A stretch of DNA of 34,758 nucleotides from a bacterium (GTDB lineage: Bacteria > Actinomycetota > Acidimicrobiia > Spongiisociales > ZC4RG35): positions 1-34,758 of the forward strand of contig JAPPLW010000032.1 in NCBI GenBank assembly GCA_028819345.1, given 5' to 3'. Within the stretch, counting starts at the first letter, position 1. Every line of letters starts with the position of its first letter. The notes below the pieces were generated by a model. The model worked only from the letters and a program-made list of their open reading frames with translations, made no database searches and was not told the DNA's origin. Shown here piece after piece: positions 1-32,860 of this stretch. The position numbers and the translations under genes are program-made.

Positions 1-480
1 CCTGGTCAGAGCTACCCCACGATTTGATCGCCGGCGTCAGGACTCGCGATCTGCGGGAACCAGTACCGAGGCGTGAGAGGAGGGTGGCATGGGTTTGGAG
101 TTCTTCGGCGGCGTGGGAGAGGGTGATCTGGGTTTGTTGGTCTCTCGCACCGCCATGTCGCTCAAACCAGTAACCCCTTTTCAACCTCGCAGACACCAAC
201 AAACCATGCCCCTGAACACCCCCGAGGTCGCTGAATCTACCCCTCAGGCATCAACTCCCCGACCGAAAGGGCCACCGGAACGACCGGACCGAACCAACAC
301 GGGCCTCACCACCCAAGACCCTCCACAACAGCAGAAAACAGCGCGAGGCTGATCGAGAGGACATGAGGAGGAGCCAGGGGACAGGGTCATGGGGACCAGA
401 ACCCGAACGAGATGGATGCAGAGGGGAACCTTGAATCGGCCGGTGTCAGAACCGAAGGGGATCGGCGGAACGCCGGCCGC
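1..480. other. Left-edge region without a convincing gene
   Basis: I see no recognisable gene here. A minus-strand frame runs off the left edge from a possible GTG at 196. Its translation (about 65 codons, with stretches such as SHAAEELQTHATLLSRL) looks mildly protein-like but matches no family I know. It could be the 5' end of a gene lying mostly outside the window. Plus-strand frames in 89-352 are rich in Pro, Arg and Thr and look like non-coding translation. Confidence 0.3.
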
Positions 481-502
481 GAACGTTTTTCAGGTGGGCG
501 AA

Positions 503-775
503 CTCGACCACACGTTTGCACTAAAGCCTGCCCACAACCAAAAACGCGTGGGCAACCACCAGCCGCCCGGGGCGGCGCAGGCAGGTTTGATGGCCGGTTC
601 GGGGGGCTCCTAGCGAAACGTTCGTCGAGTACCTGGTCCGGCTTCTCACGAGACAAACGGCTGGCGAACAGTTTACGAACGCCTGCCGCTTCGAGCCGGT
701 GTTCCCCCAGGTCAGACCCCAAACGAACGGTTTGCGAACGCTACGAACGCTACAGCGAACGGTTTACGAACGTTT
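503..775 (+). repeat. Long inverted repeat, copy 1 (left end of cassette A)
   Basis: This is one of four related copies in the window. From its outer end inward it has: a 25-bp tip at 503-527 (contains CCACACGTTTGCACTAAAG); a hairpin with stem GCCCAC (530-535) and GTGGGC (548-553) around a 12-nt loop; a variable middle; a conserved block at 706-740; and an array of CGAACG hexamers starting at 724, 735, 744, 756 and 767. Two more hexamer-like sites lie at 665 and 676. The outer flank from about 482 also resembles the flank of copy 4, so the true end may be 482 rather than 503. It faces copy 2 in inverted orientation. No copy encodes a plausible protein. Confidence 0.85.
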
Positions 776-1067
776 TGAAGTAGACGTGGGCAGGCATTTC
801 CACTTCTACCATGCCTTGTAGGGTGTGGGCCACATCCCCGTTGAGAACCCGGTTGACGCCGGAGGTTGCTAGAACGCCGGCAGTGAGATCTAATCCACGT
901 ATTAACCCAGGAGTGGTGGCTGAACTAATCGAGGCTTCGCGACCTTCTGTTGTTCTGGCCCTTCGCGATGCTTCAGGGAATGACGTCAGCATATCCAGAT
1001 CCTTTGTCACGACTGTAACTTGGGAAGAGCGACTCAATCGGTGGTTTGAGTCCGTGATCGCCATCAT
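750..1067 (-). CDS. Doubtful small hypothetical protein downstream of the protease
   Basis: This 105-codon frame begins 48 bp after the protease stop and runs in the same direction. Its last eight or so codons read into the iteron array of repeat copy 1. It has a mixed composition with no membrane segment, signal peptide or motif that I recognise. There is no convincing ribosome-binding site before the tandem ATG codons at 1067 and 1064. It could be a real short cargo gene, a decayed remnant, or a chance frame. I list it only because nothing else explains 776-1115. Confidence 0.22.
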   Translation of the reverse strand: MMAITDSNHRLSRSSQVTVVTKDLDMLTSFPEASRRARTTEGREASISSATTPGLIRGLDLTAGVLATSGVNRVLNGDVAHTLQGMVEVEMPAHVYFKTFVNRSL

Positions 1068-1115
1068 CCGGGGAGCCGGGCCGTCGAGGCTCTGTTTCCA
1101 GGCGCACTGGGTGCT

Positions 1116-3008
1116 TCAACTCTTTCTTGCGGTTGGCATCACCGGTTCTTTGGATGGTGGGCAGATCGCCCGATCAAGGGTGCGGCACATGAATAGCATG
1201 GTTTCTTCCCTGGAAGGCGTTGATCGGAAACCGAATGTCCTGTCTGCCGTCCCGCCCGTTATTCCTTGGTCATAGGCCCAACCTATGGGTGTCTGGTACC
1301 AGGCGTCCGCGTTGGGGGGAACGTCATCGTAGTGGTCTGTGCCCAGAGTGCCGGTGTCTGGTGCTCCTTCCGCCCGGTGGAGGAATGCCATGGTTTGTTC
1401 TCTGGTGAGAGTCTGGCCCATCCCGAATAGGCCGTTCCCGACTCCGCTGGTGATGCCGTTCTCGAAAGCCCAGCCGATCGTGGTGTTTGCCCAGTGATCG
1501 CCTGGGACGTCGGTGAAGTAGGCGCTACCGTCGTACTGGGTCCTTGTGCACTCATCGGGTGCGTAGGCTCGGCACAGGAATGTTATCATTTCTTCTCGTT
1601 TCAAACCTGACCGAATCCCGAACCGGTCTTCGCCGACGCCGGCGGTTATCTCCCAGGACTGGGCCCACCTTACCGGAACATAAAAGAAACTGTCGGTGGG
1701 TACGTCGGTGAAAGTCGGGTAGTCATTGCCTGGGGCTATTTCGATTATGAAGGTGTCTCCGTACCGTTCGATCACATTGAGTTCGTATCTGTCCGGATCC
1801 GTTTCGCTGTCTCCCCACCAAACACCTTCGCCCAGACCCTGAACATGGAGCACCGGGTCATCTTCGCCCGAGAGGGCCGGTGACGTGCGTCTCTCAGAAC
1901 CCCAACAAGCATCAATGTAGGGGTAGTCGCACTGAGACGTGGATTGATCAATTAGATAAATCTCGACGCCTTCTTTCGGGACAAGGGAATCATATTCTTC
2001 CTGTACGCGGACCCCCATGGATGCAAAAACGCCGGTGGACCATTCCATGATCACCATCTGAGCACCGGGTAAACCGACCGGGCTGATTGCATGCAGCGAC
2101 AGGTAATCCCAAGGATAAAACTCGACTTGATCGGATTGAATCCACCCAGCCGCGTAACGATTCAACGCGTGAGTCCCCGCCAGTACCCTTCCGCTGACAG
2201 TTACTCGGTTATCTTCATACGTTGCGGTTGGCCGGCGGCTCATCAAATCCATGGGATTGTCGTATTCGTCTATGGTGCCATCGTCACGTATCGTCGTGCC
2301 AGTAAAGGAATGCGGCCAACTGAGCGTATGCCCGATCTCATGAGCCACGGTGCTAATCACATCTAGAGCATCAAGGGCATCAAGTGAACCTATGCCGCCC
2401 TCGATAGAAGACAGAGCGATCGGGGACCACCGAACTCCTACGTTCGTAAACCACCCCATCCAAACCCACCGCTCGTTCTCAGGGTAAAACTCGCACCACA
2501 ACCAATAGGAAACAACATCATCCCAACAAGTAGTACCAGCCCCACCCAGAGACAAGACACCGGCAGCATCCGCAACATGCAGAGTCGAGACGACAATAGC
2601 TGCATGGTTCCCACCCGCCGACCGATTACCGACCGAATCCAAACAACCTTGCTGGCTGTTGGCCCGAACCGACCCACCGGGAACGAACGACAAAACATAA
2701 CGCCCCTCCGAAAGCCACGAAAAAAACGGAGGTAGCTCAGCATTCAGCAGTCCCGATACGTTCTCAGGCGTCAGATCCAACGAACCATGAACCCCATCGC
2801 ACACCCACACCTCGAACCGGTCAGGCGCGGTCCCCCGAAACGACGTAAGCCCAAAGTGGGCCACCAACCCCAACGGGTCAGCCGCATAAGGATCGGGATC
2901 AGCCGACTGCAAAACCACCCGATCAGTCAATGACTGAGCACCTACGGGAGCAGGCAGGACAACCATCACCAAACCAGCCATCACAAACCACGCCCGCAAC
3001 GCAGCCAA
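1116..3008 (-). CDS. Secreted metzincin-type metalloprotease with three SLH repeats
   Basis: This is probably an exported zinc peptidase held at the cell surface. The frame is open up to 3083, but I prefer the TTG at 3008. It follows a GGGGAGAGG ribosome-binding site by 6 nt and puts a compact signal peptide first (AALRAWFVMAGLVMVVLP, likely cut after PVGA). A GTG at 3038 is the alternative. The motif HEIGHTLSWPH lies about residues 223-233 and fits the HExxHxxxxxH zinc site of metzincins, with Ser where Gly is usual. A methionine-turn-like NPMDLM follows about 35 residues later. The last 190 residues hold three S-layer-homology-like repeats, each with a W-A-x-x-x-x-I-T-x-G pattern and an R-E-x-x-x-F ending. 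The length of 630 residues suits catalytic plus anchoring domains. It is the only clear cargo of cassette A. The substrate is unknown. Confidence 0.8.
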   Translation of the reverse strand: MAALRAWFVMAGLVMVVLPAPVGAQSLTDRVVLQSADPDPYAADPLGLVAHFGLTSFRGTAPDRFEVWVCDGVHGSLDLTPENVSGLLNAELPPFFSWLSEGRYVLSFVPGGSVRANSQQGCLDSVGNRSAGGNHAAIVVSTLHVADAAGVLSLGGAGTTCWDDVVSYWLWCEFYPENERWVWMGWFTNVGVRWSPIALSSIEGGIGSLDALDALDVISTVAHEIGHTLSWPHSFTGTTIRDDGTIDEYDNPMDLMSRRPTATYEDNRVTVSGRVLAGTHALNRYAAGWIQSDQVEFYPWDYLSLHAISPVGLPGAQMVIMEWSTGVFASMGVRVQEEYDSLVPKEGVEIYLIDQSTSQCDYPYIDACWGSERRTSPALSGEDDPVLHVQGLGEGVWWGDSETDPDRYELNVIERYGDTFIIEIAPGNDYPTFTDVPTDSFFYVPVRWAQSWEITAGVGEDRFGIRSGLKREEMITFLCRAYAPDECTRTQYDGSAYFTDVPGDHWANTTIGWAFENGITSGVGNGLFGMGQTLTREQTMAFLHRAEGAPDTGTLGTDHYDDVPPNADAWYQTPIGWAYDQGITGGTADRTFGFRSTPSREETMLFMCRTLDRAICPPSKEPVMPTARKS

Positions 3009-3443
3009 AAAGCGCCTCTCCCCGGAAGGACGAAACACAACTAGGGAAAACACATCAGCAACCTCGCCACCGCACGGACGCAAGCGTCCCGGCAGGAGAT
3101 GATGCGCACCAACCAGCGCACCCTTTTCCTCTCAGACGGTCTCTTCGCTTCAGACGGTGCCCTACGGATCGTCAACAGTATGGGCTGCTAGGAGGCATGG
3201 GTCACAAATCCTCGTCCGGTCTCTGAGCAGCTGAGCCGACTCCAACAGGCCATGGACTCCAAACAATAACGACCGCGGGCATGCCCGTCACCTGAGACAA
3301 CCCACCAAGGAACGGGCCAGAGTCACGATAGAAAGGGGACGGCCCAGCCTTGAAGGGGACGGTCAGAGGGAGATATAACGATGTTTCCTGCCCACCGCCA
3401 CGCAACAACACCCAGAAAAAGACGTTTGTTTAACCGAGCTTCT
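3009..3443. other. Upstream region of the protease gene, no gene seen
   Basis: This stretch separates the protease start from repeat copy 2 and should contain the protease promoter, reading leftward. Short direct repeats are visible: CAGACGGT twice near 3134-3161 and AAGGGGACGG twice near 3330-3365. A TTATAT sequence on the minus strand near 3375 could be a -10 box. No frame here looks coding. Confidence 0.4.
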
Positions 3444-3447
3444 ATGA

Positions 3448-3685
3448 CGTTCGCAAACCGTTTGCAAACCGTTCGTTTACGGTCTGACCTGGGGCAACAC
3501 CCACCGGAAACAGTCAAGCGCTCGCAGCCGTTCGCCAGCCGTTTGTCTCGTAAGAACCCGGATCACGTACTCGACGAACATTTCGCTAGAAGACCCTCAA
3601 ACCTGCCCACGCCGCTTCGGGTTGCCGGAGGGCTGCCCACGCGTTTTCGGGTGTGGGCAGGCTTTAGTGCAAACGTGTGGTCGAG
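3448..3685 (-). repeat. Long inverted repeat, copy 2 (right end of cassette A)
   Basis: This is the inverted partner of copy 1. On the plus strand it begins with CGTTCG-type hexamers at 3448, 3459 (CGTTTG) and 3470, then the conserved block ending near 3494. The hairpin GCCCAC (3635-3640) / GTGGGC (3653-3658) follows, and then the 25-bp outer tip at 3661-3685. It shares with copy 1 a middle segment (about 3530-3610, around ACGAGACAAACGGCTGG in the other strand) that copies 3 and 4 lack or keep only in part. The two ends of cassette A are therefore closer to each other than to those of cassette B in that segment. Its iteron array is shorter than in the other copies. Confidence 0.85.
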
Positions 3686-3759
3686 ATGCCCCGCGACCAA
3701 AACGCTGATGACGGATGGCTTCAACCGGCTCCACGCGCCCTGGGACAGCTCCGCTGTGG

Positions 3760-4059
3760 CTACCAACACCAGGTCACCACACCCGGATCACCACCCTGAT
3801 CCCAGTTTCAGGCACCACCCTCACCGACATTTGCGGCGTAGGTGACCTTCTCGCTGCCGAAATCCTCGGGGAGGTGGGGATCCCAGTCGCTACCCCACCA
3901 GGACGAATACTGCCGTGGCCCATGGCACAGTACCAATGGACCCCAGCATCAGCGAACAAAATGCCACTGACTCACCGGGGCGCCAACCGTCGCCTGAACC
4001 GGGCCATACACATCGCCGCTATCAACCCAACCCGAAGGGATTCATTTCTTATTGCCCGC
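3760..4059 (+). pseudogene. IS110-family transposase, C-terminal remnant
   Basis: The translated frame contains LTDICGVGDLLAAEILGEVG followed, about 45 residues later, by a sequence ending NRRLNRAIHIAAINPTRRDS. These match the C-terminal helix-hairpin-helix and GNRxLNxAxHxxA parts of IS110/IS1111 transposases. The N-terminal RuvC-like catalytic part is absent, and the middle (where a Phe-Ala-Gly-Pro-rich segment is expected) is corrupted. The remnant starts about 75 bp outside the right tip of cassette A, so an IS110 copy was probably broken here. It cannot be active. IS110 elements carry a bridge RNA in a flanking non-coding region, but nothing here can be assigned to one. Confidence 0.72.
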
Positions 4060-4204
4060 CCAGATAGCAGTTCGAACCCACCCCTTACAGATCGATTGAC
4101 AAACCAGGCCTCTCAGGGTGGGCGCGCCGTTCCTATTGTTCGTCTCGGAACCGGCGCTGGTCTCGGTTCCAGAGGAGTGATGTTTGCTTTAACCTAGGGG
4201 GATC

Positions 4205-7129
4205 ATGGCTCGGACCAAAGAGGTTGCTTTCAATGTGTTGTTGGCTGAGGAGTTGATGGCTCGGCACCCGCGGTGGGACAAGGGCCTGGTCACCGCGGAG
4301 TCGACTGACGTGCTGGTGGACGCCGCGGCGAAGAGTCCTGACATCGTGGTGGGGTATCCGGGAGAGTCGTCGGTGATCGTGGAGACGGAGTTCGAGCCGG
4401 CTAGCACAGTGGAGGAGGATGCACGGGGTCGCCTGGGGGTAACGATCAAGTCCACGGGTGACACCGTTGAGCAGGTCGTGGCGGTGCGAATCCCCGAAGG
4501 CCTGCGTGAACAGGCAGGTGGAGAGGAGATCGCTAAGGGTCAGTTCTCCTATTGCTTGTTCTCAGCGTTGCCTTGGCTTGGATCGGACGGTTCTTCTCAA
4601 TGCCGACGGTTTCCTAGAAAGGGCTGGATCAGTGGAGGGATCGACGACCTGACGGGATTCATAGAAAGGGCAGCGCTGTCGGAGTCCCGGATCATAAGAG
4701 GAGCTGACATTCTGGAAGTCGGCGTTGAAGCCGCAGCGGGCCGGTTGCATCAGGATCTGGGTGCTACGCATTCCGGGGTGCTGGACACCATTGGCAACGT
4801 GCTGCATCAGGAGAAGGGCTGGCAAACTACCCGGATGGCTATGGCGGTGGTTGCCAACGCCTTGATATTTCACACCGCCATCGCCGGAACGCATGGCATC
4901 CGAACCATTGATCAAATGCGGTCAGCCAGTGGGGACTTAGCCAAAACGGATGTGCTCGACGCCTGGCGGGAGATTCTCCAAATCAATTACTGGCCAATCT
5001 TTGACATAGCCACGCGGGTGATGGCTCCCATCCCGAATGGTGTAGCCAACGAGACTTTCAGACGACTGTCCACCGTGGCTGGGAGGCTCGCCGGTCTGGG
5101 TGTCACGACCACGGGAGACCTGGCTGGACAGATGTTCGGGCAGCTGATAACCGACCGGAAATTCCTGGCCACGTTCTATACACTGCCGTCCTCCGCGGCG
5201 CTACTTGCGGAACTTGCGGTGGAGCGTCTGGGTATTGACTACGGTGACGCTGACCAGGTGACCGGCCTTAAGGTCGCAGATCTAGCCTGTGGAACCGGTG
5301 CTCTGCTCTCCGCCGCTTACAACAGGATCACAGCAAGAACCCGCCGATCCGGGATAGATGACCAGGTTTTGCACCCCCGGATGATCGAAGAAGTCCTGGT
5401 AGGAGCTGACATAATGCCAGCAGCAACCCACTTGACCGCGGCCATACTGTCCTCAGCCCATCCTTCAGTTACGTTCGGGCGCACCAACATATACACAATG
5501 CCATATGGTGAGCAACCCGAAGGAAGAGCGGTAGCGATCGGCTCCTTGGATCTCATTGATGATGTCAACGCAATGACTCTCTTCGGCACGGGAAGACGCC
5601 TAGCAACTGGGAGCGGCGAAGTGGACGCGGACGAGAGCACGAACCTGTTCGTGATGGACCACCGTTCCGCTGATTTGGTGATTATGAATCCTCCCTTCAC
5701 TCGCCCCACCAACCACGCGACGGCCACGGCCGCGGCTGTTCCCGTTCCTTCCTTCGCTGGGTTCAGCACCGAAAAAGACGAACAAAAAGCGATGGCCAAT
5801 GCCCTGAAAAACCTTCACAAAACAATCAAGGGGCTAGTTGGCCACGGCAACGCAGGGCTAGCTTCCAACTTTCTGGACCTGGCCCATGTCAAGACCAGGA
5901 CAGGGGGTACCATTGCGCTGGTTCTGCCTGTAGTGGTGATTACAGGTGCCTCCTGGGCGAAGACCCGACAACTTCTGTGCACCGAGTACAAGAATGTGAC
6001 AGTGATCACCATCGCTACGGTGGGGTCAACCGATCGGGCCTTCTCAGCCGACACCGGCATGGCCGAGGCCCTGCTAATAGCCACTCGCCACTCACCGAAT
6101 CCACCATCCGATCTCACCACTTTGTGGGTCAATCTCACCCGCCGACCCAAAAGCACTGCGGAAGCTGTCGAAATAGCTCGCGCGATCGCCCACACGGCCC
6201 ATGACGATTCAGGCTGGCTGCAGGTAGGCGAAGACAGAATGGGCTGCTACATACGGGCACCGCTTGAAGAAAGCGGATGTGCCCAGACAGCCGAACTGGA
6301 TGTGGTGAGAACTGCATTGGGCTTGGGTACAAGCAAGTTGGTCTTGCCGCGGATCGCTCCCCTCGCGTTGTCGATGACTCGGCTTGCCAAACTCGGACAG
6401 CCCGGACTCGTCCACAGGGACATCAACGGTATGAATTCTGATGGGACATCGCGAGGCCCTTTCGACATCGAACCTCTATCCGTCGGCCAGATAGCGTCCT
6501 ATCCAAGTTTGTGGGCGCACAGACATATGCGGGAAAGGCGCTTGATTGTTGATCCGGACAGCCAGGGCAGGGTTCGCTCGGGCTGTGAGGATCACGCCCG
6601 CAGGGTTTGGGAAACAGCTACTCGGCTCCACTTCAATCTGGATTTCCAAATCAACTCCCAAGCATTGGCGGCGTGTCTAACTCCGCGTGTAACGATTGGC
6701 GGACGGGCCTGGCCCAACTATCATTTGCTTGACGACTCTTGGGAGAAAGTGCTGGTGTTGTGGGCCAACACCACGCTGGGGCTGATCGGTTTCTGGTGGC
6801 GAGGGACGCGTCAGCATCAAGGCCGGGCTGTGCTAACCATCACAAGGTTGGGCGAACTTCCGGTGCTGGATCCTCGGCAACTCTCCGAGGGACAGATCGA
6901 ACGCGCACAAGCCATGTTTGACGAGTTTGCTGACCGAGCGTTACTACCTGCGAACGAGGCATACCGTGATCCCAGCCGGATTGCTCTGGATGAAGCAGTG
7001 TTGATTGACCTACTCGAAATGCCCAAACAGGTTTTGGAGCCTTTGGCTGTCCTCCGTCAGCAATGGTGCGCCGAGCCCACCGTTCACGGTGGGAAAGGAA
7101 CTCGACCCGGAGGGACCAAAATGGGGTAG
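4205..7129 (+). CDS. Large DNA adenine methyltransferase with possible N-terminal nuclease domain
   Basis: This 974-residue protein carries the N6-adenine (gamma-type) methyltransferase signature. The SAM-binding motif ADLACGTGALLSAAY lies near residues 356-370 and the catalytic NPPF at 495-498. The first 80 residues contain PD at 45-46 and VIVETE at 57-62. This could be a PD-(D/E)xK-like nuclease core with an ExE variant, as in BamHI, but the assignment is weak. The C-terminal 250 residues would carry target recognition. The size and single-gene layout fit a type IIG-like restriction-modification protein or a defence-island methylase. No separate specificity or restriction gene lies beside it. 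A GGGG-type ribosome-binding site precedes the ATG. Upstream is the IS110 remnant; downstream is a long stretch with no clear gene. The methyltransferase call is firm; the nuclease call is not. Confidence 0.8.
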   Translation: MARTKEVAFNVLLAEELMARHPRWDKGLVTAESTDVLVDAAAKSPDIVVGYPGESSVIVETEFEPASTVEEDARGRLGVTIKSTGDTVEQVVAVRIPEGLREQAGGEEIAKGQFSYCLFSALPWLGSDGSSQCRRFPRKGWISGGIDDLTGFIERAALSESRIIRGADILEVGVEAAAGRLHQDLGATHSGVLDTIGNVLHQEKGWQTTRMAMAVVANALIFHTAIAGTHGIRTIDQMRSASGDLAKTDVLDAWREILQINYWPIFDIATRVMAPIPNGVANETFRRLSTVAGRLAGLGVTTTGDLAGQMFGQLITDRKFLATFYTLPSSAALLAELAVERLGIDYGDADQVTGLKVADLACGTGALLSAAYNRITARTRRSGIDDQVLHPRMIEEVLVGADIMPAATHLTAAILSSAHPSVTFGRTNIYTMPYGEQPEGRAVAIGSLDLIDDVNAMTLFGTGRRLATGSGEVDADESTNLFVMDHRSADLVIMNPPFTRPTNHATATAAAVPVPSFAGFSTEKDEQKAMANALKNLHKTIKGLVGHGNAGLASNFLDLAHVKTRTGGTIALVLPVVVITGASWAKTRQLLCTEYKNVTVITIATVGSTDRAFSADTGMAEALLIATRHSPNPPSDLTTLWVNLTRRPKSTAEAVEIARAIAHTAHDDSGWLQVGEDRMGCYIRAPLEESGCAQTAELDVVRTALGLGTSKLVLPRIAPLALSMTRLAKLGQPGLVHRDINGMNSDGTSRGPFDIEPLSVGQIASYPSLWAHRHMRERRLIVDPDSQGRVRSGCEDHARRVWETATRLHFNLDFQINSQALAACLTPRVTIGGRAWPNYHLLDDSWEKVLVLWANTTLGLIGFWWRGTRQHQGRAVLTITRLGELPVLDPRQLSEGQIERAQAMFDEFADRALLPANEAYRDPSRIALDEAVLIDLLEMPKQVLEPLAVLRQQWCAEPTVHGGKGTRPGGTKMG

Positions 7130-7804
7130 GCAAAAGGGTGACAGACACTGCACCGCCCTATCCTCCCCAGGGACTTCCTCAGACTGCCCTTCGGCGATGG
7201 TGTTAACGATTCGCCCATTACCGTCGGACGGCCCGCCAGAGGCTGAAATAGAGGCCCCTGAGAGGCCCATAGAGGCTCTGGAAAGTTGCTCTGGCACTCT
7301 CTGGGGTGCACTCAAGCCCTGTTTTGTGCAAAACCGTGGCTGGTGCCTCAAACCCTCCGTAGGCTGGACGGCGATCATCACAGCATCAGACATCTCAGCC
7401 TCCACCAACTCATAAAACACCACACCAGCCCATCCCACTGGAGAGAGGGGCCAGGTGGCACACCTAACGGCCTCCCGTTCCTGACCGGCTCACCGTGGGG
7501 CACCGGGCTAGCCTCGAGCTTCAACCTACAGACCGACCGATTATCCCGTTTTCTAGCGGAGGCGGACGGAATCATGCAGCTGGGTCGAACAATTCGCCAT
7601 AGTCCCAAGCCAACCGCATTGCTGGTACATGGGCTGAACCTCATAGCAAACCCCCTCCGAGGCCTTCAACGAACACCTACACCTCCCTCAAACAAAGCAG
7701 TGTTGCGACCACCCGTTGAATCCGGGTCATTGACCTGGGCGATGTTTCGACTCCATCTGTCGGAGGAGGCATGGTGACGGTGGGTTGAGACTGGGAGTCT
7801 GGCG
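7130..7804. other. Stretch without a recognisable gene
   Basis: About 675 bp lie between the methyltransferase stop and the integrase stop. Several frames are open for 60-160 codons on both strands. None has a recognisable motif, good ribosome-binding site or consistent codon use. A small cluster of AGAGGCC-like repeats sits at 7245-7280. It may be decayed island DNA. I see nothing further. Confidence 0.35.
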
Positions 7805-8944
7805 TCAAGACCCGGTTAAGTAGGTCGCCCATGAGTTCATCACCTCCCGCCTTACGGAGATTAGATCACTTCTCGCGTAGGCTCTTTCAGCTGCATTTGC
7901 GACTTGATGAGCAAGGCAGGCTTCAGCAACTTCCCTTACCACTCCAGATTCCGAGCACCAATCCCGAAACGCTGATCGCATCCCGTGGAGAGTCCCTCCG
8001 AGGTCAAGGTCAGCGGCCAGTTTTGACATCTTCCATGCTGGCCACTCCCGCCCATCCTCCCGAGGGAACAGCAACCCAGACTCGGTTTCATACTCCCGTG
8101 CTGTGGCTAGCACCTCTAATGCCTGTGCCGACAGTGGAGCTCGATGCGGACGGCCTCCCTTCATCCTGACCGCCGGTATTTCCCACAACGCTTCGGGTTG
8201 GTTGATCTCTTTCCAACGGGCGCCACGGGCCTCGCCGGACCTAGTTGCAGTGAGCACAGCGAATTCGAAGGCGAGGCGAACAGTGGGATAGACGCTAGAG
8301 TCTCGGACTTTGGCAAGAGCCGCGGCCACCTGGGTGTGGTGAAGAGCTTGGAGGTGCTGCGCTCTCTTTGCGTTACTACCTAGAGCCGCCGTGATCCGGT
8401 CGTCGGCCGGATTGTCTTCTCGGAACCCCTGGGCGATGCTCCACCTCATAATGGAAGACAGTCTCTGCAAGACCCTTCTCGCTGTAGTGGAATGGGAATG
8501 CCAGATCGGCGCCAGGCATGCCATTACATCAGCCGAATTGACCTCGTCGATCGGTTTGGACCCGATCTTCGGGAAGACATAATTCGAAAGGGAAGATCTC
8601 CAGTGTTTCTCGGAAAGGCCTCCTGGTTTCCACTTTGCCGCGTGAATCTCGATCACCGCATCGGCTGCTTCCCGGACTGTTGGCAGGGCCGTGGAGCAGA
8701 GCGCCACCGGGTCACGGCCTTGACGGGCGATCTTGCGGTATTCAGCGGCTTTCGCCCTCGCTTCTGCGAGGGCGAACATCGGATAGCCACCCAAGCCGAG
8801 GTCCCGTCGTTTGCCGTTAATAGTTGTTCGCAGTACCCAACTCTTGGATCCAGACGAGCGGATCAGCAGGAATAACCCGCCGCCGTCGTAGTGTTTTCCG
8901 GGTTTTTTGGCGGACCGAACGCCTACAGCTGTCAGTTTTGTCAA
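7805..8944 (-). CDS. Tyrosine-type site-specific integrase (P4-like, DUF4102 N-terminus)
   Basis: This recombinase would integrate and excise a genomic island at a tRNA gene. Residues 1-90 fit the DUF4102 arm-binding domain of P4-type integrases (GGGLFLLIRSSGSKSW and LGGYP segments). The catalytic set is complete: R235 (LTATRSGE), K262, H320-xx-R323 (HGMR), H346 and nucleophile Y356. The length of 379 residues is close to the family's usual 390-420. The start is a TTG at 8944 with GGAGAG a few bases upstream. It starts 201 bp from the 3' end of tRNA-Leu(CAA) and is transcribed away from it, the normal arrangement for such islands. The island should therefore extend leftward and include the methyltransferase and cassette A. 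The enzyme looks intact. Confidence 0.92.
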   Translation of the reverse strand: MTKLTAVGVRSAKKPGKHYDGGGLFLLIRSSGSKSWVLRTTINGKRRDLGLGGYPMFALAEARAKAAEYRKIARQGRDPVALCSTALPTVREAADAVIEIHAAKWKPGGLSEKHWRSSLSNYVFPKIGSKPIDEVNSADVMACLAPIWHSHSTTARRVLQRLSSIMRWSIAQGFREDNPADDRITAALGSNAKRAQHLQALHHTQVAAALAKVRDSSVYPTVRLAFEFAVLTATRSGEARGARWKEINQPEALWEIPAVRMKGGRPHRAPLSAQALEVLATAREYETESGLLFPREDGREWPAWKMSKLAADLDLGGTLHGMRSAFRDWCSESGVVREVAEACLAHQVANAAERAYARSDLISVRREVMNSWATYLTGS

Positions 8945-8958
8945 ATGGACTCTCCTAA

Positions 8959-8979
8959 TCGTCCCACAATTCGTCCCAC
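8959..8979. promoter_or_regulatory. Direct repeat TCGTCCCAC upstream of the integrase
   Basis: Two copies of TCGTCCCAC lie at 8959-8967 and 8971-8979, a 12-bp period, immediately upstream of the integrase ribosome-binding site. Between integrase start and tRNA is where arm-type integrase-binding sites and excisionase sites are normally found, so these may be arm sites or an operator for autoregulation. This is inferred from position and repetition alone. Confidence 0.4.
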
Positions 8980-9145
8980 GCTACTGTGAAACTACCTGGC
9001 ACTATAGCAGACTCTCTGAAACAAATGAAAGACCCAAACCTGCTGTGAAGACGAGGCTGGACCGTAAGGTGGTTGTGGTGTAGCAGGCCTGTGACCTGGA
9101 CTTACACTACTTAATGAAACCGCATGCAACCCAGCGAATCATCAG

Positions 9146-9230
9146 TGCCGGGAGTGGGATTCGAACCCACACGGAGTTGCCCCCAATGGATTTTGAGTCC
9201 ACCGCGTCTGCCAGATTTCGCCATCCCGGC
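9146..9230 (-). tRNA. tRNA-Leu (anticodon CAA)
   Basis: Read on the minus strand, the 85-nt gene folds as a class II tRNA. The acceptor stem GCCGGGA pairs with TCCCGGC, the discriminator base is A at 9146, and there is a variable arm and the T-loop GGTTCGAATCC. The anticodon loop CTCAAAA gives anticodon CAA, reading UUG codons as leucine. The 3' CCA is not encoded. A TACAAT box on the same strand just upstream (about 9241-9246) is a possible -10 element. Its 3' end faces the integrase gene, so this tRNA is the likely attachment site of the left-hand island. No second copy of its 3' end is visible in the window, so the far attachment site lies outside. Confidence 0.95.
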
Positions 9231-26148: not shown

Positions 26149-27957
26149 CTATTGCACCCTGTGATGGCGGTTTGAGAGTATGAATTTGTCATATTGCGGG
26201 ATTGTGGTTACTAGCTGGTTGATGTTGGTGAAGAGTCCGCTCTCGGTGAGTGCGGAGTGGTGTTCCCTGACTGTGATTCCTGGAAAGTCATCATCGGAGT
26301 TATCTGGCCATAAGGAGAACAGTGGTGGTGGAGTTGTGGGTTTGTGGCGCCGAAAGCTGCGCCACACTGCTCTTCCTATCGGCCCGTAGTCGGTGTCGAG
26401 GCCTACAGCGTAGGATATGCCCAGCAGATATTCCACCTCATCGAAGCAGTCAGCGTAAACCTCTTCGCTTGGTACAAGATCGGAGACAATCGGGCGCAAC
26501 ACTTCGAACAGGTGTTCAGAGATGGGAGTTGGATGTCTATTGAGTTTTGGAATGGCTTGTTTCACGATGTCGCGGTCAAGCACATCCCAGGAGCTAGCCG
26601 CGACCGCCACTGGCCGCGGGGGCCTTTCATCGCGAACTTTGACTTTTGCTAGGACATGGGCAATGGATTCGAGGCGGCCGGTTGCAACAGATCCAAGGCC
26701 GGTAGCGTAGATTGCCAGGAGTGTTGGGTATTGCTGAAGGTTCAAAAGGGCCACATTGCCGTTTCGTTTGAGGTGGCGAGACGCCAGCCGATCAACACAC
26801 CGCTGCCAAAGTTCATCATGCTCTAGACAGTCCGAAAAGCAGGCCCCGACTGCTAGGAGTCTGAGTAGCCGCGCCGTTGCTTCCTCGTAGGCGGCCATTT
26901 GCTCTGCATAGTGCTCAAAACCTTGCAATGTGTCCACCGCTGATTCCTGAACCCGGTTGATCACGTGATCGGCTTCTCCGATGATGAGGTCGTGAAGTTT
27001 GATGCGGTGGATTGGATCGGGAAGAAAAAGCTTGAGTTGTGCGACCGCTAGCTCCGTCTCGAACGGTCTCTGGTCCGTAAGGCTTTCCAGCGCCTCTACC
27101 TTGGCTGCCAGGTCTTCGAACACAGTGTCGGCATCCTGGATTGAGACTTCCTTAGCGTCTCGATGTCTGATGATCTCTCGGGCTGCTTCATTGATTGGTC
27201 CACGATGGAACCAGTAGGTGGTAAACCGTCGACCCGGTGCTCGTAGGATGGCGTTTCGGAGAGCGCTGTCCCAAACACCGGACCATCCGCAGACAATGAG
27301 GCCGTACTGGTCGAACACTTCGTCAAGAAGGCGATCAACCGCCGGGTCGTATTGGGATAACTCCTCAATGGTGTTTTTGAGGTCCGGCGAGATATAGTCG
27401 CCGTGAACTTTGATGATCGTGCAATCACTATGGGTGATGGGTAAAGATCCCTCTGCGTGAGCAGAGGTGGATACAACGTTCGGCTCAACTCCGGCCTCCC
27501 CGAGCGCGGTTTCGAGCAGCCGATCGAAATTCGTGGTCACGATCACCTTTACATAACCCTTGGACACGAGTTGAGCGATGGCGTGATGGGCCGGGGTGGG
27601 AACCTTCAATCCGTTGGCTCGGTCTTCTTCTGTGGGCTCAAAGTACGGCTTCAGAAGGTTCCGGCGGTCAACCTGGGAGGGTGCTAACTCAGCAAGCAAC
27701 TCAGAGTAGTTTGGGTCACCCGCGGTATGGCTTCGATACCAAGAAACGGGATCCTCCCCAGCATCATCGTCTTGCAGGACGGCATAACGCTTGACGAGAT
27801 CAAGGACAACATCCCAGCCGCTCGGGACTCCAGCACCGGTGCTGATGCCCGAACCCAGCAAAAGGGCAAAGGTCCGAGGGCCAGCATGGATGCTTGAAGC
27901 AAGTGCCACCAAAGGGTCTCTTTCCATCCTGGCAAGTCTATTTGCAGCCAGTGACAC
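26149..27957 (-). CDS. SIR2-family protein with large C-terminal helical region
   Basis: The N-terminal 300 residues form a SIR2-like NAD-binding domain. The segments are LLLGSGISTGAGVPSGWDVV near 32-51, VTTNFDRLLE at 140-149 (the N-D pair is intact), KVHGDY with the catalytic-type H185, and VCGWSGVWD near 222-230. The remaining 300 residues are helix-rich with no motif I know. Standalone SIR2-domain proteins of about 600 residues in islands often act as NAD-depleting phage-defence effectors (as in Thoeris ThsA, DSR and pAgo-associated SIR2); a similar role here is inference. The start is a GTG at 27957 or the ATG at 27927, which gives a more usual N-terminus. No partner gene is adjacent. Confidence 0.8.
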   Translation of the reverse strand: MSLAANRLARMERDPLVALASSIHAGPRTFALLLGSGISTGAGVPSGWDVVLDLVKRYAVLQDDDAGEDPVSWYRSHTAGDPNYSELLAELAPSQVDRRNLLKPYFEPTEEDRANGLKVPTPAHHAIAQLVSKGYVKVIVTTNFDRLLETALGEAGVEPNVVSTSAHAEGSLPITHSDCTIIKVHGDYISPDLKNTIEELSQYDPAVDRLLDEVFDQYGLIVCGWSGVWDSALRNAILRAPGRRFTTYWFHRGPINEAAREIIRHRDAKEVSIQDADTVFEDLAAKVEALESLTDQRPFETELAVAQLKLFLPDPIHRIKLHDLIIGEADHVINRVQESAVDTLQGFEHYAEQMAAYEEATARLLRLLAVGACFSDCLEHDELWQRCVDRLASRHLKRNGNVALLNLQQYPTLLAIYATGLGSVATGRLESIAHVLAKVKVRDERPPRPVAVAASSWDVLDRDIVKQAIPKLNRHPTPISEHLFEVLRPIVSDLVPSEEVYADCFDEVEYLLGISYAVGLDTDYGPIGRAVWRSFRRHKPTTPPPLFSLWPDNSDDDFPGITVREHHSALTESGLFTNINQLVTTIPQYDKFILSNRHHRVQ

Positions 27958-28463
27958 ATCGTCAGAACCACCGAGAACGATCGCCCCGGGGCAGCGGACC
28001 CCTCAAAGCCCTATCGTCGGACTGTCAACGGTGGAGAATCAGCCAACCGGTCGAGAATCCCTGCACCCTCCAAGGCACCCAAGACTGCCGGCGCTTACGC
28101 CTGGTCCGGCACGGCGGAGCAGAGAATGGCCGCCATGCGGGACGATCACGCCCTTGCCGAACTGCTGGCAGCGGCGGACAAAACCACAGCACACGTTCAC
28201 CGCTTCGGGAACGGGCCCAGTCAACCAGGCAACCACGAACCCCTGAAACGAATCGCGTCAAGCAGCGGAACAGGTATGCGCAGGCGGAGGTGACCCGGCT
28301 CGAATACCAGCCGGTCCGGCAGGACGAAAAGGGATCGACTAAACGGCCCGGGAAACAGAATCCGGCCCACCAGCTAAGAAGGCAGTCAGAAGCTACGAGC
28401 GATCGGCAAGCCCAAAAGACGCGATCACAGAGCCACGACGAAATCGAAAAAATGTCCGTAGAA
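27958..28463. other. Gap between SIR2 gene and cassette B
   Basis: No gene with a start and recognisable motif is present. One plus-strand frame is open from about 27953 to 28302 and contains a helix-like stretch (AEQRMAAMRDDHALAELLAA). It lacks a start codon before ATG 28132 and has no known relatives to my eye. It could be a decayed gene end. The leftward SIR2 promoter should lie in 27960-28020. Confidence 0.3.
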
Positions 28464-28745
28464 CTCAACCACACGTTTGCACTAAAGCCTGCCCACACCC
28501 AAAAACGCGTGGGCAACCACCAACCGCCCGAAGCCGCCGACCGGGATCGGGAATGGCTTCGGGCATCATCAACCGAAACCTTCGTCGAGGCCTCACCCGG
28601 ACCCCTTGCGGGGAAGTTCCCGGCGAACAGTCAGCGAACGCTTTGCGAACGCTTGCTGTTGCGAGTCGGTGTTTCCCCAGGTCACACCCCAAACGAACGT
28701 TTTGCGAACACTGCGAACGCTTCCACGAACGGTTTGCGAACGCTT
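28464..28745 (+). repeat. Long inverted repeat, copy 3 (left end of cassette B)
   Basis: It has the same architecture as copy 1: outer tip 28464-28488, hairpin GCCCAC (28491-28496) / GTGGGC (28509-28514), a divergent middle, the conserved block 28676-28710, and CGAAC hexamers at 28694, 28705, 28714, 28726 and 28737. Those intervals of 11, 9, 12 and 11 bp equal those of copy 1 exactly. An upstream trio lies at 28624, 28635 and 28646. The middle segment differs from the other copies, while tip, hairpin, conserved block and array are kept, which points to function rather than recent duplication. Confidence 0.85.
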
Positions 28746-29081
28746 CGATATGGACGAGGATCGGCATTCTTCACCCCGACCATGCTCTACAAATGGGACT
28801 ACATGCGTTGGAGAGGGACACTTCCCACAGGAACGAAATGTCCAACGGGCTTTTAGTTCTGCTCTACTACCTTCAGGCCACCCGATCCACTTTCTTGGAA
28901 GGACCGCGGTGCGAGGCCATGCACCTTGGAACTCTCTCCTGGTGTCCGGAACGCTTGATGTATTGTGGTGTGTGGGTTGGGTAAAGTGCGAATTATGACC
29001 GAGCAGCGTACTTGTTCTCGACCCTGACCAGTGCATCTGCGCCCGGGTGCAGCCAACGGTGCGGTAGTGGGAAGGCGGGCG
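28746..29081. other. Leader region inside cassette B, no gene seen
   Basis: It lies between repeat copy 3 and the first cargo gene. Open frames crossing it on both strands run into the repeat and look like chance translation. TTGATG near 28955 and TATTGTG after it, followed by TAAAGTGCGAATTATGA, may include a rightward promoter for the 165-residue gene; this is a guess. Confidence 0.3.
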
Positions 29082-29579
29082 ATGAGCGCAGCGAAGTCTA
29101 GGGCACAGAGAGATCGGGGGAAGTGGTCGATGCCAGGCGTCCCGCACAAAGGATGGTGGTGCATTGGGCTCAAAGACCTCAAGGGACTCTTCGGGATCTG
29201 CGAGATGTGCGAAACGCAATCCATTCGGTACGTTCACTACATGGAGCACCCCGACTACCCTGATGTCCTTGGCGCGGGGAGCGTGTGCGCCGGACACATG
29301 GAAGGTGATTACGCCGCGCCGCAACAGCGGGAGAAGCAAGCCATCTCGCTAGCTGCCCGGCGATCAAGGTGGATGAACACTAAGTGGAGACAATCTGCCA
29401 AGGGCAATCCCTACCTCAACCGCAGCGGCTTCAACATCGTGTTGTATCCAAGCGGCAGACATTGGGCATTCAGGATAGAACGGCGCAATTCGGGGCAGTC
29501 TTGGAGACGCGCCGGGTATGCCACCATCGACGATGCAAAACTTGCGGCATTCGAACGCTTCACGAAGCTACAACAATAG
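29082..29579 (+). CDS. Small protein with CxxC...CxGH zinc-finger-like motif
   Basis: The product has 165 residues from ATG 29082, which has GGAAGG a few bases upstream; an upstream in-frame ATG at 29031 lacks this signal. Near residues 45-85 lies GICEMCETQSIRYVHYM followed by VCAGHMEGDY, that is CxxC and CxxH pairs spaced like a treble-clef or similar zinc site. After a basic linker comes a compact C-terminal region (GFNIVLYPSGRHWAFRIER, then YATIDDAKLAAFERFTKL). I have seen this overall pattern in uncharacterised proteins scattered over bacteria, but I know no function. It is the first cargo gene of cassette B. A nucleic-acid-binding role is possible. Confidence 0.7.
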   Translation: MSAAKSRAQRDRGKWSMPGVPHKGWWCIGLKDLKGLFGICEMCETQSIRYVHYMEHPDYPDVLGAGSVCAGHMEGDYAAPQQREKQAISLAARRSRWMNTKWRQSAKGNPYLNRSGFNIVLYPSGRHWAFRIERRNSGQSWRRAGYATIDDAKLAAFERFTKLQQ

Positions 29580-30030
29580 GCCGCCCTCGGCGTAGGATTT
29601 TCGCGTCGGGATCCGTCACGCCCAACGAACTCCGCCAGCTCGGACTGTTCGCTGCCCATCTGACGCCCAAATGCTGTCGGCACCATATACGCTCCGAGGA
29701 TCGCTGCGCACAAGGACCGGTTGATCCGCGGCCAGCATTCGAGCCGTGACAGCAGGAAGCTGCTCGCCGCAGGTTAGACGTCACAACCTGGGTGCGATCA
29801 AACCGGAACCTACACCAATACGCTTGCCGAGCGTGGCAAAGAGATACGCCTTGACCTCGTTCCGGTCTTAGTATCGGGCTCCTCGGGCAGTTCATCAAGC
29901 GCGCGGAGCCGGTCCTCTTCGATTAGCTCCTCGAGGGTGTTTGATGACACATATAGGCGCAGGGCTGTATTGTCTGGAACCACAACAGACCTCAACCAGC
30001 TCATCAACCGACCGAAGAAAGGCACCCACC
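29580..30030. other. Gap between the two cassette B genes
   Basis: No convincing gene. A 71-codon leftward frame (30025-29810) includes the stretch SSNTLEELIEEDRLRALDELPEE and might be coding. However, it would overlap the leader of the rightward 117-residue gene and has no family I recognise. The rightward gene's promoter is expected around 29930-30010; TTGTCT and TACAAT-like elements are not clear. Confidence 0.3.
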
Positions 30031-30384
30031 ATGGACCCTATCGAACTCGAAAGGCTTACGGCTGCGGTGTTGCAGAGGTTCCTTGACGACGAGGAGGGCG
30101 AATACAGTCTGAAACGGCTACGGGAGACTGTTCATCTCATGCAAAAGGAACTGGCGATCGCTCACCACCACTCCCTGACGTACATTTCAGGTTTTCTTCG
30201 TCAATACAAGAACACTTCCCCGAAGGAGTATCGATGGCCCGAACGCGAATTGACGACCGCAGATTACGTGCGAGTTCTAGAGGGAGCGATTCAATCTCAA
30301 CTGGATCAAGGTGTGAACCTAACCCACCAGGACATCCTGCTTCTGAAACTCCTTGCCCAAGAGCGATACGATTCGAAGTCATAG
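30031..30384 (+). CDS. Hypothetical small helical protein in cassette B
   Basis: The product has 117 residues from ATG 30031 (MDPIELERLT...), preceded by GAAAGG 11 nt upstream. An upstream in-frame ATG at 29941 would add an atypical Ser/Thr-rich leader. It is acidic to neutral, largely helical (LTAAVLQRFLDDEEGEY, then KRLRETVHLMQKELAIAH), with no Cys pair, membrane segment or known motif. It might be a small regulator or an antitoxin-like protein, but nothing in the sequence proves this. It is the second cargo gene of cassette B, same direction as the first, and ends about 105 bp before repeat copy 4. Confidence 0.6.
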   Translation: MDPIELERLTAAVLQRFLDDEEGEYSLKRLRETVHLMQKELAIAHHHSLTYISGFLRQYKNTSPKEYRWPERELTTADYVRVLEGAIQSQLDQGVNLTHQDILLLKLLAQERYDSKS

Positions 30385-30489
30385 GGAGACAGTCCAGTAG
30401 ATTGGGAAAACACCTGAAGCGAGCAGGCTAAGTTCTGCCGTCTGTAGTCCACGCCTTCTAGCGACATGTTCGAATACTCCTCCAGCTAC

Positions 30490-30761
30490 AGCGTTCGCTA
30501 ACCGTTCGTTACAGTGTTCCTAGCGTTCGCAAACCGTTCGTTTGGGGTCTGACCTGGGGAAACAGCGACTGAGATCGTCAACCGTTCGCAAACCGTTCGC
30601 CGGGCGCGGTTCTCGTTATGGGTGGCGTGAAGGCGCGATGAACGCTTCGGAAGAAAACACCCGAATCCACCCTCAAACCAGCCTGCGCCGTCCCGGGTTG
30701 TTGGTGGTTGCCCACGCTAAATCTGGTGTGGGCAGTGCTTTAGTGCAAACGTGTGGTCGAG
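30490..30761 (-). repeat. Long inverted repeat, copy 4 (right end of cassette B)
   Basis: On the plus strand it begins with CGTTCG hexamers at 30492, 30503, a degenerate one near 30515, 30524 and 30535. The conserved block runs to 30559. Two more hexamers lie near 30582-30599, then the hairpin GCCCAC (30710-30715) / GTGGGC (30728-30733) and the outer tip 30737-30761. Its hairpin loop differs in sequence from the other three copies while stem and 12-nt loop length are kept, which supports selection on structure. Its outer flank resembles that of copy 1. Confidence 0.85.
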
Positions 30762-31123
30762 ATCGCCCACCTCAAACGTCCTCAGGCATTCACTACCCCA
30801 AAGCCACCGCGCCCTTTAGTGGCTTGGTTCGAGGGCATTCCGTACTTGCCTTGATCGAAAATGGCCCCTGTTCCTTCGTGGATCGTCTCCCTAACCTCAG
30901 ATTCACACACCTGACTTCAGTTTCTCAAGGGGCTTGCACCGCCTGTCTAAGGGGAGAAGGTGATGCCGCCCGGCCTGGGTAGAAGTGTGCTTCGCCGATG
31001 TCGGGACAAAGGAGAAGTCGATGCGTCGGGTGTGCTAGGAAAGATGGTGCATGGTCCCTGGACGTCCATTCCCGAGTTTGGAGCCTGGATATGAGCTTGG
31101 GAAGGATTGTGTAGGATCGCTGT
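30762..31123. other. Upstream region of the DUF4062-TPR gene, no gene seen
   Basis: It contains no recognisable gene. The rightward promoter and leader of the next gene should be here. GTGTAGGATCGCTGTATG at its end supplies an AGGA ribosome-binding site 7 nt before the start codon. Confidence 0.35.
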
Positions 31124-32860
31124 ATGGCGACACCGGTGACTCGGATTCGGATTTTCTTGGCCACCCCCGGGGGTCTGGAGGGAGAACGGCAACTCTTTCG
31201 CGATACGATGGACGAATTCAGCGAGGTTTATGGCGATGCCGAGGGCTTTGTAATGAGTCCAGTGGGTTGGGAGGTAGTTTCACCTGGCACCGGCCGACCC
31301 CAGGATCTAATAAACGATCACGTCCGAGGTGCCGATTATCTCGTTGCGTTGCTCTGGGACCGGTGGGGAACGACTACGTCGGCAGAATCGCGGTACTCCT
31401 CAGGCACTTATGAAGAACTGGCTGTGGCTTTGGAATGTCTAAGTGATCCGGATGCGGAGATGCGAGATTTAGCGGTGTTTTTCAAGGGTGTCGGTGATCG
31501 ACAACTTAGTGATGCCGGGCCGCAGCTCGCACAGGTACTCCAGTTCAAGAACGCGTTGGAATCGAGAAAGGAATTGTTTTTCGGGACCTTCGACACCAGA
31601 GAAGAGTTGAGGCGCCATCTGTTGCGTTTGTTCATGCGGTGGCTCAGGGGTTTCGGTGAGAAGGTCCCGAGGATGGTTTCGTTACCGGTGTTGGGCGATG
31701 GTTCGTTGGAGGTGCAGGCCTCAATGGCAGCGTCCACCGAGAGTTCTGATTTGTTGGGAAGGGCTGATGAACTGGCCCGTAGGGGGCTGGTGACTCAGGC
31801 TGAGGTAGCCTATGCGACTGCGGTGTCCACGGATGATCGCGAGAGTCTGATCTCCTACGCTAAGTTTCTTCGTCGAACTGGTCGGCTTGAAAGAGCGTTC
31901 ACGATCAACAAGAGGATTCTCGGTCTCCGCGAGACTCTGGTCGAAGTCCCGTTGGCGTCATCAGCGGCTGATCGTTCCTATGTATTGGCGAACATGGGTG
32001 TAATCCGCCGCAAGCAAGGCGATTTGACATCATCCAGGGATCTCCTCAATGAGGCAGTACGGACAGTTGACATGTTTCCGGACTCATCAGCAGCCGAGTC
32101 AAAAGCGTACGCCCTAGACAACTTGGGGCTGACGCTGCGACGTCTTGGGAATCACGCCACTGCCTTGAGCAGTCATAAGCAGGCTCTGAACCTGCGCCAC
32201 CAGACCGGGGACGAACCAGGGCAGGCGAAGACTCTGCTCAACATTGCCAGGTTGTTTAAGGACCAAGATCAACTCGAGGATGCACGGATCTCCGCCTCGC
32301 AGGCTCTAGAGATGCTGATGGACACAGACAACGAGAAGCACACACTGGCGAATGCCTATTCGACATTAGGTGACATTACCCGAGCGGAAGGAGATCTTCC
32401 AAAGGCGTATGCACACTACGAGAAGGCGTTAGATCTGAACGAGACCATCGGCCACACAGACGGTGTCGCTGTGGTCTCCTGTCAGTTGGCGTCTCTCTTA
32501 TTAGACGACAACGACGCTACAGGAGCTTTGCCATACGCGGAGCGTAGCCTGGAGGAGAACCTGCGCTCTGGTAACAAGGAAGGGGAGGCAATCGCGCTGC
32601 GGGTGCTTGGAGATGTGCAGATGGCCAGGGGGTGCTTCGGTGACGCGAGGACCTATTACCAAGACTCCTTTAGGATGTTCCAAGAGCATCAGAACCAAAC
32701 CGGCGCGTTGCTGGCGAGGATCGGTGTGGCAGAGGCGCTTGCAGGCGAGGGCAAGACCCGTGACGCCGCTTGCGTGGCAGAGGCGCTTCAGGAGCTGGCC
32801 ACCGAGGACCGGCTTAGTGACGAGGACATGGCCAGGATACGAAGGCTTCATTGCGGCTAG
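31124..32860 (+). CDS. DUF4062-like N-terminal domain with TPR array
   Basis: The first 120 residues fit the DUF4062 pattern: RIRIFLATPGGLEGERQLFR, then GADYLVALLWDRWGT, then SGTYEELAVAL. DUF4062 is a TIR-like Rossmann-type domain found at the N-terminus of STAND and other conflict proteins. Residues from about 205 to 570 form tetratricopeptide repeats (AYALDNLGLTLRRLGNHATA, AYSTLGDITRAEGDLPKAYA and others). No NTPase domain sits between, so it would be a compact sensor or effector built from a signalling domain and a TPR scaffold. The 578-residue frame is complete. It converges, with 29 bp between, on the phosphatase gene. A defence or signalling role is inference from the domain pairing and the neighbourhood. 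Confidence 0.75.
   Translation: MATPVTRIRIFLATPGGLEGERQLFRDTMDEFSEVYGDAEGFVMSPVGWEVVSPGTGRPQDLINDHVRGADYLVALLWDRWGTTTSAESRYSSGTYEELAVALECLSDPDAEMRDLAVFFKGVGDRQLSDAGPQLAQVLQFKNALESRKELFFGTFDTREELRRHLLRLFMRWLRGFGEKVPRMVSLPVLGDGSLEVQASMAASTESSDLLGRADELARRGLVTQAEVAYATAVSTDDRESLISYAKFLRRTGRLERAFTINKRILGLRETLVEVPLASSAADRSYVLANMGVIRRKQGDLTSSRDLLNEAVRTVDMFPDSSAAESKAYALDNLGLTLRRLGNHATALSSHKQALNLRHQTGDEPGQAKTLLNIARLFKDQDQLEDARISASQALEMLMDTDNEKHTLANAYSTLGDITRAEGDLPKAYAHYEKALDLNETIGHTDGVAVVSCQLASLLLDDNDATGALPYAERSLEENLRSGNKEGEAIALRVLGDVQMARGCFGDARTYYQDSFRMFQEHQNQTGALLARIGVAEALAGEGKTRDAACVAEALQELATEDRLSDEDMARIRRLHCG

Follow-up and report, generated by a model that had tools for sequence, protein, structure and literature searches.

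Five copies of the hexamer CGAACG follow one another at regular distances within a repeat in this stretch of bacterial DNA, and the locus raises the question of which protein such an array serves and what it does there. The window, that is, the whole stretch of 34,758 nucleotides analysed here, is contig C43 of the 2.8-Mb draft genome G000, from a genus that is probably sponge-associated, judging by bin names. The original prediction was that a helically phased array lies inside each copy of the repeat, as for cooperative binding of a transposase, a replication initiator or a nucleoid protein. With a probability of about one half, the array serves a recombination directionality factor (RDF; Xis/AlpA/Apl type) as an operator or accessory array, at the ends of cassettes that lack a recombinase and reside in islands of integrase and defence genes.

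The sites in and around the arrays of the window are the following.

665..681, plus strand: doublet upstream of the copy 1 array, CGAACA...CGAACG, same 11-bp unit (starts 665, CGAACA, and 676, exact CGAACG)
698..718, plus strand: near-invariant block directly upstream of the copy 1 array, by column conservation; GGTGTTCCCCCAGGTCAGACC in copy 1, consensus GGTGTTTCCCCAGGTCAGACC
724..772, plus strand: copy 1 array, five exact CGAACG (starts 724, 735, 744, 756 and 767; spacing 11-9-12-11)
28694..28742, plus strand: copy 3 array, exact at 28694, 28714, 28726 and 28737, with the one-base variant CGAACA at 28705
30492..30540, minus strand: copy 4 array (11-21-11), exact at 30492, 30503, 30524 and 30535, with a degenerate middle unit near 30515

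The predicted starts in copy 1 are all exact. Copy 3 keeps the same register except for the variant at 28705, and the mirrored array of copy 4 was correctly placed apart from its degenerate middle unit. The spacing 11-9-12-11, described as identical between copies, is exact at the hexamer level in copy 1 but only there, being one of 15 patterns. An array inside each repeat is found in three of the four copies, whereas that of copy 2, which the earlier list did not contain, has decayed to exact CGAACG at 3448, 3470 and 3529. Copy 4 has two more exact CGAACG on the minus strand, at 30583 and 30594. The range first delimited, 665-772, covers the copy 1 array and doublet but leaves out the rest of the 290-bp repeat.

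The CGAACG array is real and far beyond chance. The window contains 42 CGAACG against 24.9 expected, a count reached by none of 100 shuffles, and five same-strand hexamers within 49 bp are absent from 400 first-order Markov windows, where the maximum is three. Across 24 arrays of the genus the spacing is varied (11-9-12-11, 9-12-11, 11-12-11, 11-21-11, 11-13-11 and others), and the differences among copies amount to gain or loss of a unit. When each distinct pattern is counted once (n=15), the 10.5-bp phase is retained, with a mean resultant length of 0.776 as compared to 0.448 ± 0.053 at random (0 of 5000 placements), which agrees with the claim that the sites would lie on one face of the helix, as for cooperative binding.

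Common descent alone would mean that an inert repeat has been duplicated and that the hexamers are meaningless. The copies are clearly related, and the block GTGTTTCCCCAGGTCA directly upstream of the array is conserved as strongly as the hexamers. However, the outcome that had been named as pointing to simple descent, spacers as conserved as hexamers, is not what is observed. Among 26 non-redundant R copies, the hexamer columns of the arrays reach 1.49 bits (92% consensus) and the spacer columns of the same arrays 0.93 bits (72% consensus), a difference never matched in column permutation (p < 5e-5); because kinship among the copies was left in, this figure and that for the phase are strong indications and not probabilities. 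Moreover, the phase is retained despite gain and loss of sites. Descent alone is thus already disfavoured and appears highly improbable. As the upstream block is equally conserved, the control region extends beyond the array, and the block at 698..718 is possibly a further protein site, judging by its conservation.

The array is carried by a repeat of about 290 bp, here called R. About 30 near-full copies of R are spread over four to five genomes, most of them in inverted pairs with varied cargo of 0.9-4.5 kb in between. Two inverted pairs stand in the window, those of elements E1 (489-3700) and E2 (28461-30776), and further pairs with other cargo occur in G002, G003 and G004 (spacing 0.9-4.5 kb). 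An outer extension, X, of about 200-230 bp, accompanies most copies.

353..501, plus strand: outer extension X of copy 1, lying beyond R, with weak conservation
489..775, plus strand: copy 1 of R, left end of E1 (outer edge about 489-503, inner edge 775; nhmmer model 2-289, E 5e-82)
3422..3700, minus strand: copy 2 of R, forming the right end of E1 in inverse orientation to copy 1 (nhmmer E 1e-66)
28461..28745, plus strand: copy 3 of R, left end of E2, no outer X (nhmmer E 1e-67)
30490..30776, minus strand: copy 4 of R, forming the right end of E2 in inverse orientation to copy 3 (nhmmer E 2e-81)
30763..30911, minus strand: outer extension X of copy 4

The array forms the control region in front of a pair of genes, first one of the AlpA family and then a triple ribbon-helix-helix gene (rhh). 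The binders first named find no support here, as the elements have no transposase or Rep gene of their own, whereas the gene that adjoins the array is of an RDF family. The alpA gene lies just inside one R (Pfam PF05930, E 3e-14) and its product has a profile match to the solved AlpA-family protein 8c3t. In L037 and L048 its ATG is found 32 nt past the last hexamer position, after a purine-rich GGAGGG-like ribosome site; L052 has ATA at the same position, and in L049 the distance from the end of the last exact hexamer to the alpA start is 43 nt, with a degenerate hexamer at 32. The rhh product of about 165 aa consists of three strand-helix-helix repeats in an AlphaFold2 model (pLDDT 80; first strand weak). 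Both genes are intact or nearly so in three copies only (L049, L052 and L037), and remnants persist in L046, L047, L048, L055, L039, L041, L040 and copy 2 of the window.

3268..3336, minus strand: alpA remnant just inside copy 2 (tblastn E 7e-4)
3050..3262, minus strand: remnant of the triple ribbon-helix-helix gene, with an in-frame stop (tblastn E 3e-11)

Since alpA or rhh has been lost in most copies, many units may be dead. The alpA traces at both ends of L046 and L048 suggest that two convergent R-alpA-rhh copies, with cargo between them, may have given rise to the element ends. A further alpA gene, 89% identical to those linked to arrays, stands just downstream of a tRNA-Met (L165 1243-1420, G001:C120), with a single CGAACG before it.

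It has been reported that the RDFs of tyrosine recombinases bind cooperatively to direct repeats set one helix turn apart and bend the DNA, both at attachment sites and at promoters; phage 186 Apl recognizes five direct repeats at attP, spaced by 10-11 bp, and further ones at the pR-pL promoters (PMC7498355). RdfS likewise binds attP and its own promoter (PMC11963761). An RDF operator fits closely, because four to five phased direct repeats stand directly upstream of alpA and recur at the other end, and the linked gene is of an RDF family (PF05930 in L049, L052 and L037). The cassettes would then follow the plan X-R-alpA-rhh-cargo-R'-X'. AlpA, whose gene lies immediately inside an R, would occupy the CGAACG units in head-to-tail order, with one protomer to each helix turn, and bend the DNA. 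Binding at the alpA end would autoregulate the alpA-rhh operon; at both ends AlpA may shape the DNA, the R ends acting as recombination ends, so that a tyrosine recombinase provided in trans can excise or rearrange it. This enzyme would most likely be a P4-type integrase from the islands around the cassettes. A likely co-binder would be the triple ribbon-helix-helix protein.

Several observations speak against an RDF operator. The end repeats are inverted rather than direct, which is unusual for integrase att sites; the elements have no recombinase gene, and neither an exact terminus nor a target duplication was found. The alpA and rhh genes are largely intact in three copies only, and in G003, which has 13 R matches, no match to AlpA passes the threshold. 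The likeness to the operators of Apl, lambda Xis and P2 Cox is one of arrangement: these too have several direct repeats at intervals of about one helix turn, both at the recombination region and at promoters (PMC7498355), but the R arrays stand inverted at both ends of an element without integrase. RdfS of ICEMlSym(R7A), a winged-helix RDF (PMC11963761), has no consensus motif, whereas the R arrays conserve a strict hexamer.

The ribbon-helix-helix protein could equally be the binder of the array and is the main rival to AlpA. According to this alternative, it would act like TraY, in a relaxosome or in partition, and R would serve as an oriT-like or operator region through which an ICE mobilises the cassettes in trans. 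The predicted three-repeat fold resembles TraY in joining ribbon-helix-helix units in one chain, TraY being one dimer-equivalent and the rhh protein having three repeats. The best Foldseek matches of the model are F-plasmid relaxosome chains (prob 1.00, E 1.9e-3, a marginal value), identified as TraY by elimination because entry 9f10 lacks TraM. TraY proteins line up on DNA like a train in the relaxosome (PMC12117103). In addition, the tRNA-Ala island L151 (G002:C73:178000-197000), which has two tandem P4-type integrases, AlpA and a tandem repeat of about 200 bp before alpA, encodes a type IV coupling protein and, about 0.4 kb away, a distant three-RHH homologue (31% over the alignment); the island is possibly a relative of the parent element. 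However, no relaxase, oriT or nic site was seen in the elements, which have no relaxosome genes nearby other than that coupling protein, and arrays also occur in elements with an alpA remnant but without rhh (L046 and L047). On this evidence, the ribbon-helix-helix protein is an unlikely, though serious, candidate for the principal binder.

The cargo between paired R copies varies from element to element. The coding sequences in the window are the following.

1116..3083, minus strand: E1 cargo, secreted protein with S-layer homology (SLH) domains and a metalloprotease-like HEIGH motif
29031..29579, plus strand: E2 cargo, 182 aa, no Pfam match
30031..30384, plus strand: E2 cargo, 117 aa, without a convincing match in Pfam

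In other elements the cargo is a HEPN/RES protein (L035), DUF4268 proteins matching the PADLOC defence candidate PDC-S11 (L046, with relatives in L036 and L053) or a protein with a weak PD-(D/E)XK match (L047), and L049 holds alpA and the three-RHH protein alone. By these matches, the cassettes often seem to carry defence-like genes. No recombinase gene lies inside any element.

Inverted ends around varied cargo also suggest a family of non-autonomous transposons, in which R, with or without X, would be a long terminal inverted repeat moved by a DDE transposase in trans and the hexamers would be transposase sites. The R pairs are indeed terminal inverted repeats, and capture of cargo is indicated by homologues of the E1 cargo protein without R elsewhere in the genus. 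TGTGGG is conserved at the R edge, and at L154 the core flank reaches to about 25 bp from the R edge, the orthologous site being empty in G000. Yet no autonomous relative with a transposase and the same ends was found in the genus genomes, and no transposase was seen between paired R copies bar an IS110 inserted in L039, both in incomplete assemblies. No exact terminus or target duplication was found at R copies, where draft contigs often stop; the left junction is resolved in one element only, and its right end is decayed. The outer X, being conserved, does not resemble a transposon end, and the array is in promoter position of alpA. Compared with MITE/TIME-type elements, which share inverted end repeats, lack of a transposase and varied cargo, the R cassettes differ in that their ends span about 290 bp or more and contain a promoter-like array, and that no target duplication was found. 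A transposon family of this kind is therefore quite improbable. The TGTGGG edge might also be likened to Tn7-like ends; no tns genes were seen.

Two readings of the edges were set aside. X as a pre-existing target is disfavoured, as X-X' surrounds an rhh remnant in L105 and breakpoints relative to G005 and to an IS3-like gene place X on the element side. Likewise rejected was a simple transposon end at the R edge, with duplication of the target: the left flanks vary and X usually lies outside R, so that no terminus can be fixed. Little or no X is found at four copies (window 28461, window 3685, the right end of L035, and L154). Nearly all R copies have an invariant inverted repeat TGCCCAC...GTGGGCA with a 12-bp spacer (528-557 in copy 1), and the R edge has a near-palindrome TGTGGG..TCGACCACA; both are possible recombinase sites. 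A second dispersed repeat family of the genus, whose members often form pairs less than 1.2 kb apart, overlaps the L048 element at its left end (3676-3791, 4848-4964). In Rfam, R of the window matches no RNA family at gathering level, and three element loci have no relevant hit at relaxed level.

R is restricted to the genus. It is present in five of six genomes, one with a fragment only; the 35 genomes sampled from other genera of the same family and order all lack it. A 20-base pattern of the most conserved R end, searched among 84,980 bacterial and archaeal genomes, matches solely in metagenome-assembled bins; IMG/VR has no contig with this end and no relative of the rhh protein, and phage records gave no match. 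This distribution bears on host nucleoid proteins and replication initiators. Phased direct repeats fit either in principle, but nucleoid proteins should be common to the related genera from whose sampled genomes the arrays are absent, and no rep gene was seen in the elements. Such sites are the least probable explanation of all.

Mobility is suggested by the setting of E1, whose island contains a candidate recombinase that may act in trans.

7805..8944, minus strand: P4-type tyrosine integrase of the tRNA-Leu island holding E1 (Pfam Arm-DNA-bind_3, Phage_int_M, Phage_integrase)
9145-9230: tRNA-Leu

In G000, E1 lies within the island beside tRNA-Leu, and in G003 a 95% identical E1 lies at another site. 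The G003 region matching tRNA-Leu and polA has no match to the island, and the right-hand similarity between the two E1 copies ends at window 3707, the R edge. One element thus occupies two non-equivalent places in two species. In G004 the right flank of E1 is followed by X and a truncated R, then by a DUF4268-like reading frame instead of E1. On G003:C27, an R element adjoins ATP-synthase genes, and in G000 the flanks of this site are joined without it; only the left junction is clear. P4-type integrases occur near some R copies, one of them about 350 bp away at a tRNA-Ala (L050), and no att core or direct-repeat ends were seen there. AlpA-bearing islands (CP4-57, P4-like satellites, PICI/PICMI) have in common with the cassettes an AlpA-family gene, tRNA islands with P4-type integrases and defence-like cargo; the cassettes differ in having no integrase in the unit, long inverted ends and a tandem ribbon-helix-helix partner gene. 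In the open-access literature, no described element combining AlpA, ribbon-helix-helix and inverted ends was found.

A wider picture, which we hold tentatively and consider rather doubtful, is that these are genus-specific mobile cassettes without recombinase, with an RDF and a tandem ribbon-helix-helix protein inside long inverted RDF-array ends, between which island enzymes would swap largely defence-like cargo. If so, an excisionase and its binding array would be the portable end of small cargo cassettes without their own recombinase, and a route for shuffling defence-like genes (DUF4268/PDC-S11, HEPN-RES, PD-(D/E)XK) within islands of uncultured sponge-associated bacteria. About 25 RDF-type arrays varying in site number and spacing would form a natural, testable set.

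Beside copy 2, window 3715-4150 on the plus strand resembles the C-terminal part of an IS110-type transposase that is intact in G003 (69% identity to L039 4921-5146), and the G003 copy of E1 has an intact IS110 at the inner edge of R. The island in window 1-9230, beside tRNA-Leu(CAA), combines its P4-type integrase with a 974-aa methyltransferase-like defence protein (weak MTase_II match). E2 is flanked by a SIR2-like protein at 26149-27957 (PADLOC PDC-S65 match, E 5e-191) and on the other side by a DUF4062/TPR protein at 31124-32860 (PDC-S60 match).
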